Of a stretch of DNA of 64,000 nucleotides, positions 16,828 through 49,832 are shown piece after piece (the stretch's first letter is position 1; every line of letters starts with the position of its first letter). The DNA is from Geothrix oryzisoli (GTDB lineage Bacteria > Acidobacteriota > Holophagae > Holophagales > Holophagaceae), in NCBI RefSeq assembly GCF_022808865.1, contig NZ_JAKZLB010000001.1, positions 496,001-560,000 on the forward strand, given 5' to 3'. A program made the translations under genes and the position numbers. Under the pieces are notes generated by a model. That model had not been told where the DNA came from and did no database searches. It was given only the letters and a program-made list of their open reading frames with translations.

Positions 16828-17859
16828 CTAGCTGACGCCCCAATCCAAAATCACCTTCCCGCTCTGCCCGCTCCTCATCGCGTCGAAGCCCTTCTGGAAG
16901 TCGTCGATGCTGAAGCGGTGGGTGATGACGGGGGTGATATCCAGGCCACTCTGGACCATGGCGGCCATCTTGTACCAGGTCTCGAACATCTCGCGCCCGT
17001 AGATCCCCTTCAGGATCAGGCCCTTGAAGATCACCTGGCTCCAGTCGATGGCGCAGTCGCCAGGCAGGATGCCCAGCAGGGCCACGCGGCCGCCGTGGTG
17101 CATGGCCTCCAGCAGGGACTCGAAGGCATTGCGGTTGCCGCTCATCTCCAGGCCCACGTCGAAGCCCTCGGTCATGCCGAGATCCTTCATCACCTCGGGC
17201 AGGCCCTTCTTCATGGGGTTCACGGCCACGGTGGCGCCCATCTTCCGCGCCAGCTCCAGGCGGTATTCGTTCACGTCCGTGATGACGACGTGCCGGGCCC
17301 CCACGTGCTTGGCGATGGCCACCGCCATGATGCCGATGGGGCCAGCGCCCGTGATCAGCACGTCCTCACCCACCATGTCGAAGCTGAGGGCCGTATGGGC
17401 CGCGTTGCCGTAGGGGTCGAAGATGGAGGCCACCTCGTCCGGCACGTTGTCCGGCACCTTGAACACATTGAAGGCGGGGATGGAGAGGTACTCCGCGAAG
17501 GATCCGGTGCGGTTCACCCCCACGCCCACCGTGTTCCGGCAGAGGTGGCGCTTGCCGGCCCGGCAGTTCCGGCAGTGGCCGCAGGTGATGTGGCCTTCGC
17601 CGCTCACCCGGTCGCCGGGCTTGTAGCCCTCGACTTCGGCGCCGACCTTCTCGATGACGCCGAAGTATTCGTGGCCGACCACCATGGGCACGGGAATGGT
17701 CTTCTGGGCCCAGTCGTCCCAGTTGTAGATGTGGACGTCCGTCCCGCAGATGGCGCTCTTGTGGACCCGGATCAGCACGTCGTTGGGGCCCATCTCCGGC
17801 AGGGGAGCCTCCCCCATCCAGATGCCTTCCTCGCGCTTGGTCTTCAACAGGGCTTTCAT
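16828..17859 (-). CDS. tdh: L-threonine 3-dehydrogenase
   Basis: Zinc-dependent medium-chain dehydrogenase oxidising L-threonine to 2-amino-3-ketobutyrate with NAD+, the substrate of Kbl (21.3-22.5 kb). It has 343 aa, close to the E. coli enzyme. It begins [15 protein letters not shown] and has catalytic zinc motifs [13 protein letters not shown] and GHEYFG. The structural zinc cluster is [15 protein letters not shown], and the Rossmann motif is [16 protein letters not shown] 17859 follows GGAGG. It is divergent from the asnB control region. Confidence 0.93.
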
Positions 17860-17921: not shown

Positions 17922-17951
17922 TTGACGATTCGTGAAACCAGCCGATAAGGT
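17922..17951 (+). promoter_or_regulatory. Promoter of the asnB leader transcript
   Basis: The -35 TTGACG (17922-17927) matches the sigma-70 consensus at 5 of 6 positions. The -10 is TAAGGT (17946-17951, 18-base spacer) or ATAAGG (17-base spacer). Transcription would start near 17957-17959, only about ten bases before the leader-peptide ATG at 17967. The start point is inferred. Confidence 0.6.
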
Positions 17952-17966
17952 TCTTGCAGGCGACCC

Positions 17967-18056
17967 ATGACCTTCCCCTGCCCGCGGTTCAACCGCAACT
18001 TCAATAATCGGCTCCCTCGCGCGAATCGCGCGTGGGCCGGCGAGGGTCTCACCTAG
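17967..18056 (+). CDS. Asn-rich leader peptide of asnB (29 codons)
   Basis: Short open frame ATG 17967 to TAG 18054-18056. Residues 9-14 read NRNFNN and residue 20 is also Asn, so five of 29 codons specify Asn: AAC 17991, AAC 17997, AAT 18003, AAT 18006 and AAT 18024. AAT looks uncommon in this GC-rich genome. A weak ribosome site (GCAGG) lies six bases upstream of the ATG. It has no features of a folded protein. Its place between promoter and terminator, directly ahead of the asparagine synthetase gene, marks it as a regulatory leader peptide where ribosome stalling reports shortage of charged tRNA-Asn. Translation is inferred. Confidence 0.8.
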
Positions 18057-18089
18057 ACACCTGACTTCCCGGACCACCCCCGATTCGCG
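18014..18089 (+). promoter_or_regulatory. Attenuator: protector and antiterminator helices
   Basis: Two competing helices are visible. The protector pairs 18014-18020 (CCCTCGC) with 18040-18046 (GCGAGGG), 7 perfect bp. The antiterminator pairs 18020-18028 (CGCGAATCG) with 18081-18089 (CGATTCGCG), 9 perfect bp. It continues across a 3x3 internal loop with 18032-18040 against 18069-18077 (8 of 9 bp). The antiterminator consumes the 5' arm of the terminator. A ribosome stalled at the Asn codons 18003-18008 would cover the protector's 5' arm and free the antiterminator. Confidence 0.8.
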
Positions 18090-18109
18090 ACAGCGGATCG
18101 GGGGTTTTT
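18077..18109 (+). terminator. Intrinsic terminator of the asnB attenuator
   Basis: CCCCCGAT (18077-18084) pairs with ATCGGGGG (18097-18104). The stem continues with a T-G wobble and CGC/GCG around the loop GACA (18089-18092). TTTTT follows at 18105-18109, then CTTT. This is a strong intrinsic terminator 23 bases before the asnB ATG, so it can only act as a conditional terminator for asnB. Confidence 0.88.
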
Positions 18110-18131
18110 CTTTCCCTGAACGGAGACGACC

Positions 18132-19841
18132 ATGTGCGGCATCCTCACCATCCTCGACATCGATCCATCGCGCTCGAACGCCACGGAGCTCCGGCGCCAG
18201 GCCCTGGCCATGGCCCGGAAGATCCGCCACCGGGGCCCGGACTGGAGCGGCATCTACAGTGACGACCGGGCCATCCTCGTCCACGAGCGCCTCTCCATCG
18301 TGGACGTCGAGCATGGGGCCCAGCCCCTGGTCGACACCCTCCAGGGCACCGTGCTGGCCGTCAACGGGGAGATCTACAACCACAAGGAGCTGAGGCGGGA
18401 CCTGCGCGAGGCCCACGACTTCCAGACCCTGTCCGATTGCGAAGTGATCCTCTACCTCTACGATGAGCTGGCCCCGAAGGACTTCCTCAACCGCATGAAC
18501 GGCATCTTCGCCTTCGTGCTCTACGATCCCAAGCGCGAGACCTACCTCATCGCCCGGGATCCCATCGGCGTCATCCCCCTCTACCTGGGCTGGGACCGGG
18601 AGGACCGGCTCTACGTGGCCTCCGAAATGAAGGCCCTCGTGGGCCATTGCGAGCGGATCCGCGAGTTCCCTCCTGGACACTTCTACCTGGGCCACGAAGC
18701 GGACCAGGGGTTCCAGCGCTATTACGAGCCGGATTGGGCCGAGCCCGGCTACGCCCCGGATGCTCCCTACGATCCGGCGGCGCTGCGCGCGGCCCTGGAA
18801 GCCGCGGTGAAGCGGCAGCTCATGTGCGACGTGCCCTATGGCGTCCTGATCTCCGGCGGAGTGGACTCGTCCCTGGTGGCCGCCATCGCCGCCCAGTATC
18901 GGGACGGACGCGTGGAGGAGGGCGGCACCACCCCGGCCTGGTGGCCCCGGATCCACAGCTTCGCGGTCGGTCTGGAAGGCGCGCCGGACCTCGCTCCGGC
19001 GCGGCTGGTGGCCGATCACATCGGCGCCATCCACCATGAGATCCACTTCACGATCCAGGAGGGGCTGGATGCCCTCTCGGACGTGATCCACCACCTGGAG
19101 ACCTTCGACATCACCACCATCCGGGCCTCCACGCCCATGTACCTCATGATGCGGAAGATCCGCGCCATGGGCATCAAGATGGTCCTCTCCGGGGAAGGGG
19201 CGGACGAGATCTTCGGCGGCTACCTCTACTTCCACAAGGCGCCGGATGGTCCCGAGCTGCATGCGGAGACCGTCCGCAAGCTCCAGAAGCTGCACCTCTA
19301 CGACTGTGCCCGGGCCAACAAGTCCAGCGCGGCCTGGGGGGTGGAGGCCAGGGTGCCCTTCCTGGACCGGGCGTTCCTGGACGTGGCCATGCGGCTGGAT
19401 CCCGCCGTGAAGCTGCCCCGGAACGCGCCCCGTCCCCGGCCCATCGAAAAATACCCCCTGCGGAAGGCCTTCGAGGGCCTCATCCCGGACGAGGTGCTCT
19501 GGCGGCAGAAAGAGCAGTTTTCGGACGGCGTGGGCTACGCCTGGATCAACGCCCTCAAGGCCACGGCCGAAGGTGAGATCAGCGACGCCATGATGCGGGG
19601 CGCGGCGGAGCGCTTCCCGGTCAAAACGCCGGAGACCAAGGAGGCCTACTTCTACCGCCAGATGTTCGAGCACCACTTCCCCAGCGCCACGGCCGTGAAC
19701 TGCGTGCCGTTCGAGCGCAGCGTGGCGTGCAGCACCGAGACAGCCCTGCGCTGGGACGCCTCGTTCGCGAACCTGGCCGACCCCTCGGGCCGGGCGGTGG
19801 TGGATGTCCACGAGGTAGGGTACAAGAAGGACGGGCTGTGA
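18132..19841 (+). CDS. asnB: Asparagine synthetase, glutamine-hydrolysing
   Basis: Makes asparagine from aspartate, glutamine and ATP. It is 569 aa, slightly longer than E. coli AsnB. Cys2 is the glutaminase nucleophile (MCGILTILD). The class II amidotransferase motifs RHRGPDWSG and AVNGEIYNH follow. The synthetase domain has the PP-loop LISGGVDSSLVAA (near residue 240) and SGEGADEIFGGY. ATG 18132 is preceded by CGGAGACG. Expression appears controlled by the leader-peptide attenuator at 17922-18109. A small gene follows after 23 bases. Confidence 0.96.
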   Translation: MCGILTILDIDPSRSNATELRRQALAMARKIRHRGPDWSGIYSDDRAILVHERLSIVDVEHGAQPLVDTLQGTVLAVNGEIYNHKELRRDLREAHDFQTLSDCEVILYLYDELAPKDFLNRMNGIFAFVLYDPKRETYLIARDPIGVIPLYLGWDREDRLYVASEMKALVGHCERIREFPPGHFYLGHEADQGFQRYYEPDWAEPGYAPDAPYDPAALRAALEAAVKRQLMCDVPYGVLISGGVDSSLVAAIAAQYRDGRVEEGGTTPAWWPRIHSFAVGLEGAPDLAPARLVADHIGAIHHEIHFTIQEGLDALSDVIHHLETFDITTIRASTPMYLMMRKIRAMGIKMVLSGEGADEIFGGYLYFHKAPDGPELHAETVRKLQKLHLYDCARANKSSAAWGVEARVPFLDRAFLDVAMRLDPAVKLPRNAPRPRPIEKYPLRKAFEGLIPDEVLWRQKEQFSDGVGYAWINALKATAEGEISDAMMRGAAERFPVKTPETKEAYFYRQMFEHHFPSATAVNCVPFERSVACSTETALRWDASFANLADPSGRAVVDVHEVGYKKDGL

Positions 19842-49684: not shown

Positions 49685-49832
49685 AGCCAAGCCGAGGGCG
49701 CAGGCTGCGCGATGGTCAGCCTGGCCCCGAAAGGGGCCGGGCTGACCACGGCACTCGGGGGAACGACTTAGGGCTGCTTCTTCCGATCTGACCCGGTTCA
49801 TCGCACCCCGATGCATGGGGCCCGGCTTGGCT
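49685..49832. repeat. Nested inverted repeats enclosing the SRP RNA
   Basis: AGCCAAGCCG (49685-49694) is perfectly complementary to CGGCTTGGCT (49823-49832). Inside lies a 34-base palindrome: GGTCAGCC (49714-49721) with GGCTGACC (49740-49747) and GGCCCC (49723-49728) with GGGGCC (49733-49738). On the plus strand its single mismatch is a T-G wobble and its loop is GAAA, giving a 15-bp stem. It overlaps the 3' end of the SRP RNA on the other strand. Confidence 0.7.
49736..49826 (-). ncRNA. ffs: Signal recognition particle RNA (4.5S-like)
   Basis: The minus strand carries the SRP domain IV core at 49771-49796: GGTCAG, a GGAA tetraloop (plus-strand 49781-49784) and GAAGCAGCC, followed by CTAAGTCG and GAGTGCCG as in other bacterial SRP RNAs. 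The ends pair perfectly (GCCGGGC with GCCCGGC), and TCGGGG pairs with CCCCGA, closing a single long hairpin of about 91 nt. Compared with E. coli the apical stem looks one base pair shorter on both sides. It works with Ffh in co-translational membrane targeting. Ends are inferred from pairing. A TACCCT -10-like box lies at 49835-49840. Confidence 0.8.

Follow-up and report, generated by a model that had tools for sequence, protein, structure and literature searches.

The leader of asnB in Geothrix oryzisoli is, with high confidence, a ribosome-mediated transcription attenuator of the trp/his type whose regulatory codons specify asparagine. The leader lies within the window, the whole 64,000-nucleotide stretch of DNA that was analyzed. 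Its conserved short reading frame, the match between its codons and the downstream pathway, and its alternative helices and their geometry are all observed directly. Ribosome-mediated attenuation is itself a known, classical mechanism; the Asn specificity appears new on the basis of the searchable literature.

All coordinates that the first-pass annotation had assigned to the promoter, the leader frame with its five Asn codons, and the three helices were verified on the sequence (Table 1). The Asn codons occupy positions 9, 11, 13, 14, and 20 of the frame, and four of the five fall within codons 9 to 14. With Asn accounting for 2.3% of codons (a frequency taken from 1546 codons), the probability of finding at least four Asn in any 6 of 28 codons by chance is ~6e-5. 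The antiterminator takes up the 5′ arm of the terminator in a perfect 9-bp helix that would exclude the terminator. The intrinsic terminator was also found by a scan and, because tdh is divergent, is not assignable to any upstream gene. The promoter was not called by a strict consensus scan; TTGAC and a −10-like hexamer are located at the same position in the 24 Geothrix copies examined, the hexamer being TATGAT or TATCAT in several relatives. A further hairpin, GCGG-TTCAA-CCGC (17984-17996), is embedded in the run of Asn codons and is retained in most Geothrix copies; it could act as a pause hairpin that synchronizes ribosome and polymerase.

Table 1. Features of the asnB leader region and two further leaders in the same genome. 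Coordinates are window positions unless a contig or locus is named.
Feature	Coordinates	Strand	Details
Promoter	17922..17951	+	TTGACG (17922-17927), 18-nt spacer, TAAGGT (17946-17951)
Predicted leader peptide frame (asnL, possible name)	17967..18056	+	29 codons, stop TAG
Putative regulatory codons 9-14	17991..18008	+	Asn-Arg-Asn-Phe-Asn-Asn; Asn at 17991, 17997, 18003, 18006
Proposed protector	18014..18046	+	18014-18020 (CCCTCGC) with 18040-18046 (GCGAGGG), 7/7 pairs
Antiterminator	18020..18089	+	18020-18028 with 18081-18089 (9/9 pairs); 18032-18040 with 18069-18077 (8/9, one G-A mismatch)
Intrinsic terminator	18077..18113	+	18077-18088 with 18093-18104 (12/12 pairs, one of them G-U), then TTTTTCTTT
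asnB, asparagine synthase B (glutamine-hydrolysing)	18132..19841	+	569 aa; NF006949, 823 bits versus cut-off of 499
tdh, L-threonine 3-dehydrogenase (neighbor outside the switch)	16828..17859	-	NF003808, 607 bits versus cut-off of 380
DAHP synthase leader (L002/L034)	C3:410103-410212	-	Own genome; 9 aligned copies in the genus
proB leader	L055:1505-1632 (own genome C5, about 134349)	-	Pro-rich; perfect 11-bp antiterminator

The Asn-rich frame precedes asnB in 31 of 37 Geothrix genomes, a set comprising the own genome and 36 congeners. In the other six, asnB of the same type was either undetected, truncated, or starting at a contig end. The leader is therefore present at every examinable asnB start in this set, and no start lacks it; it does not accompany four further congener genes that resemble asparagine synthase genes. 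The asnB of the window is 93 to 94% identical to those of Geothrix fuzhouensis and G. campi, in keeping with a Geothrix-like genome of the Holophagaceae. Among the 32 aligned copies of the leader, Asn is kept at codon 9 in 31, at codon 11 in 28, and at codon 14 in all 32, with exchange between AAC and AAT, and the residue between the conserved Asn codons varies freely (F, I, T, S, P, or N). In the structural half of the leader (RA-RA-W), third bases are nearly fixed. Varying third bases in the Asn part and near-fixed ones in the pairing part are as expected if the residues sense and the bases pair.

The helices were scored over the same 32 copies. The terminator helix is paired in 99% of cells and the antiterminator in 98%, compared to 17 to 50% when the antiterminator arms are slid. 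The proposed protector forms all of its pairs in the window, but across the copies its conservation is partial (86% of cells paired) and it shows no compensatory change, making it the least supported element. According to the first-pass annotation, attenuation would be supported if an alignment of relatives revealed an Asn-rich frame, a conserved terminator, and compensatory changes in all three helices. The frame and the terminator are indeed conserved, but no compensatory change was seen at any base pair of the three helices among the asnB orthologues; the helices are nearly invariant and hence yield no covariation signal. Randomization of synonymous codons gave p values of ~0.02 to 0.11 for the asnB antiterminator, which is suggestive only.

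What we regard as the strongest evidence for Asn-codon attenuation comes from leaders in the same genome in which the codons are swapped. The entire 3.23 Mb genome was searched for the pattern GGGGTTTTTNTTT, and sites were picked blind to their codons. Exactly three sites were found, the leaders of asnB, DAHP synthase (aroFGH), and proB, and a shorter pattern, GGGTTTTTNTT, recovers the same three. Each follows a short frame enriched in codons that match the pathway of the gene downstream, namely, Asn, Tyr-Trp-Phe, and Pro, with codon-bias chance values of ~6e-5, 8e-4, and 4e-3, respectively. The leader of the DAHP synthase gene (TIGR00034) is homologous to that of asnB (76% identity over 110 nt), and its frame, MTPRFHRYYWFPRADRAWHGEGPA, carries Tyr-Tyr-Trp-Phe in place of Asn. 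The proB leader frame, MTTFPAINPRPNHPTPTDGLERV, has five Pro codons, and its antiterminator is unrelated in sequence to that of the asnB leader; under synonymous-codon randomization, this antiterminator is strong (p < 0.001). Pro leaders were also identified in congeners, upstream of either proB (L045, L048, and L049) or proC (L044, L047, L187, and L194), and the same randomization gave no signal for the antiterminators of these copies. Because further leaders were sought with patterns and models, those with other terminators may have been missed.

A scaffold that stays constant while its codons change with the pathway also argues against a riboswitch or protein-bound RNA that responds to asparagine or to nitrogen status and contains the frame merely as a by-product. 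The asnB leader contains no conserved aptamer, and no Rfam family matches it at the curated threshold. A subthreshold match to NsiR1 covers the terminator (18054-18112; 24.2 bits versus a gathering threshold of 39, E value of 0.008) and could be taken in favor of such an RNA; the match probably reflects terminator similarity only, and we consider a riboswitch or protein-bound RNA extremely unlikely.

A covariance model search was conducted across 396 Acidobacteriota genomes, a means by which the first-pass annotation had proposed to establish the spread of the leader. Firm matches were confined to the Holophagaceae; weak model matches outside this family (L190 to L192) look like chance. The distant Asn leaders retain Asn and lose much else, as in NNLNNN (L061), RNNNGN (L063), NANNN (L183), NLNNN (L184), and DNRNNN (L185). 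Arg is frequent at codons 7, 10, and 15 in Geothrix, and dual sensing of Asn and Arg was considered and rejected, since other genera keep Asn and not Arg. In genus g17, the Asn leader MLKTSLTRQNNRNNANPSTDRAWGGEALV (NNRNNAN; L186, G152:C9:53058) is located upstream of a gene for an archaeal-type asparagine synthetase A, a relative of PDB 3p8t that matches NF005054 with 97 bits (E value of 8e-28), under the curated cut-off of 309. The genome in question has no asnB above the cut-off. Here asnB has probably been replaced by an unrelated asparagine synthetase, with the same kind of putative switch retained. The covariance model detected aromatic leaders in other genera as well: FYYFGF precedes a class II DAHP synthase gene (L189, G379:C51), and YFAFSY precedes a chorismate mutase/prephenate dehydratase-like gene (L193, minus strand, G152:C7). 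It also recovered Pro leaders upstream of proC. Taken across genera, the Asn, aromatic, and Pro leaders indicate that leader codons are matched to the pathway rather than to the gene family. One asnB locus (L199, G340) has no leader; another (L201, G143) is preceded by MTFVLANVASNHPPPGWSR, a divergent candidate leader that contains two Asn codons and whose terminator differs. Upstream of ~65 relatives of asnB in other phyla, no convincing case of an Asn leader frame followed by a terminator was found.

The conserved RAW.GEG end, which Asn and aromatic leaders have in common, would be compatible with a frame whose product works as a small protein or as a nascent-chain arrest peptide, the Asn codons being incidental. 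The loss of many residues other than Asn in the leaders of the best-separated genera (L061, L063, and L183 to L186) speaks against this explanation, as does the absence of RAW from the Pro leaders. Moreover, the RAW.GEG stretch encodes an antiterminator arm, and its third bases are near-fixed. A functional peptide is thus very unlikely, and sensing through the Asn codons is the preferred interpretation.

The effect of ribosome position on the leader was modeled with a stall scan, in which, for each ribosome position, the RNA beyond the ribosome was folded as far as the terminator's 5′ arm extends. The scan was calibrated on the Escherichia coli leaders trpL, thrL, and hisL, for which the known regulatory codons coincided with the last stall positions that permit the antiterminator. 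In the model of the asnB leader, any ribosome position up to codon 14 allows the antiterminator to form; the helix is weaker with the ribosome at codon 15 and has disappeared by codon 18. The limit of permissive stalling lies no more than two codons from the last Asn in 32/32 distinct asnB leaders tested, in agreement with the earlier claim that a stall at the Asn codons permits the antiterminator. Without a ribosome, and before completion of the terminator, the leader of the window already favors the antiterminator (0.79). The ribosome-free antiterminator also forms in thrL (0.65) and hisL (0.46) under the same model and is therefore no argument against attenuation as such; it does imply that the off state must depend on kinetics or on a ribosome occupying the stop codon.

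This truncated folding replaced equilibrium folding of the full transcript, which was uninformative because the terminator dominates at almost every ribosome position. This predicted dominance is what would be expected if a fixed terminator simply kept asnB expression low and basal, independently of Asn. Such a terminator would leave unexplained both the codon-pathway match at several loci and the invariant complementarity between leader and terminator, and we assign it a scarcely appreciable probability. Asn-codon attenuation, which the first-pass annotation had proposed for asnB, is supported by the conservation of the leader, the swapped-codon leaders, the nonhomologous synthetase in g17, and the stall window.

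The genome encodes AsnRS, so the charging of tRNA-Asn depends on free asparagine. When Asn-tRNA is ample, the ribosome would pass through the leader, and the terminator (18077-18109) would form, leaving asnB off. When Asn-tRNA is scarce, the ribosome would stall at codons 9 to 14 and cover the leader to about 18020. The stall would thereby let 18020-18040 pair with 18069-18089 ahead of synthesis of the terminator 3′ arm, and, with the antiterminator formed, the polymerase would continue into asnB. We infer that the leader frame is translated, that the ribosome stalls at its Asn codons, that transcription terminates near 18109, and that asnB is induced upon Asn limitation.

The asnB leader resembles the trp, his, thr, phe, leu, and ilv attenuators in combining a short frame that contains cognate codons, an antiterminator that competes with a terminator, a T-run, and a biosynthetic gene downstream, and its in silico stall window is the same as that of E. 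coli trpL, hisL, and thrL. In contrast to those systems, its codons specify Asn, its host belongs to the Acidobacteriota, a single Holophagaceae scaffold serves several amino acids, and the predicted 5′ end lies just about 8 nt upstream of the start codon. In Firmicutes, the asnS/asnA T-box senses the charging of tRNA-Asn and controls asparagine genes through transcription termination. In the asnB leader, which has no T-box match in Rfam, it would instead be the ribosome that senses the tRNA, via codons.

Among computed leader-frame attenuator candidates, uORFC-8-2 (cysS) has Cys codons and uORFC-13-1 (aroF) has Phe codons before a DAHP synthase gene (PMC8632094); these belong to other phyla and differ in sequence, and neither senses Asn or Pro. 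The His leaders of hisS/hisZ in Bacilli extend leader-peptide attenuators beyond Proteobacteria and Actinobacteria (PMC2965389) and, unlike the Holophagaceae leaders, are His specific. A 2010 survey states that, of the attenuators predicted in Acidobacteria, hardly any has an associated function (PMC2965389). Consistent with the first-pass annotation, which knew of no such case, no Asn-specific amino acid attenuator was found in the searchable literature or in Rfam; the survey of Lopatovskaya et al. (2010) was outside this scope, so priority is uncertain. Within the same literature, Pro specificity is probably new as well.

On balance, the data favor a modular attenuation regulon in the Holophagaceae, in which one scaffold was copied and its codons were rewritten for asparagine and aromatic synthesis, alongside a separate type of leader with Pro codons (proB and proC). 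These would be the first Asn-sensing, and perhaps the first Pro-sensing, attenuators of biosynthetic genes to be described, with the Asn leader having stayed in place when an unrelated asparagine synthetase replaced asnB. An Asn attenuator would extend the short list of amino acids sensed by classical attenuation and would place this mechanism in the Acidobacteriota, where attenuators almost never have an assigned role. The naturally codon-swapped copies suggest that the sensing codons can be exchanged as a cassette while the RNA scaffold stays the same. Such a design predicts that swapping the codons would swap the signal, which is testable in a culturable genus. Elsewhere in the window, the minus strand carries a bacterial small SRP RNA at 49732-49827 (RF00169, 62 bits).
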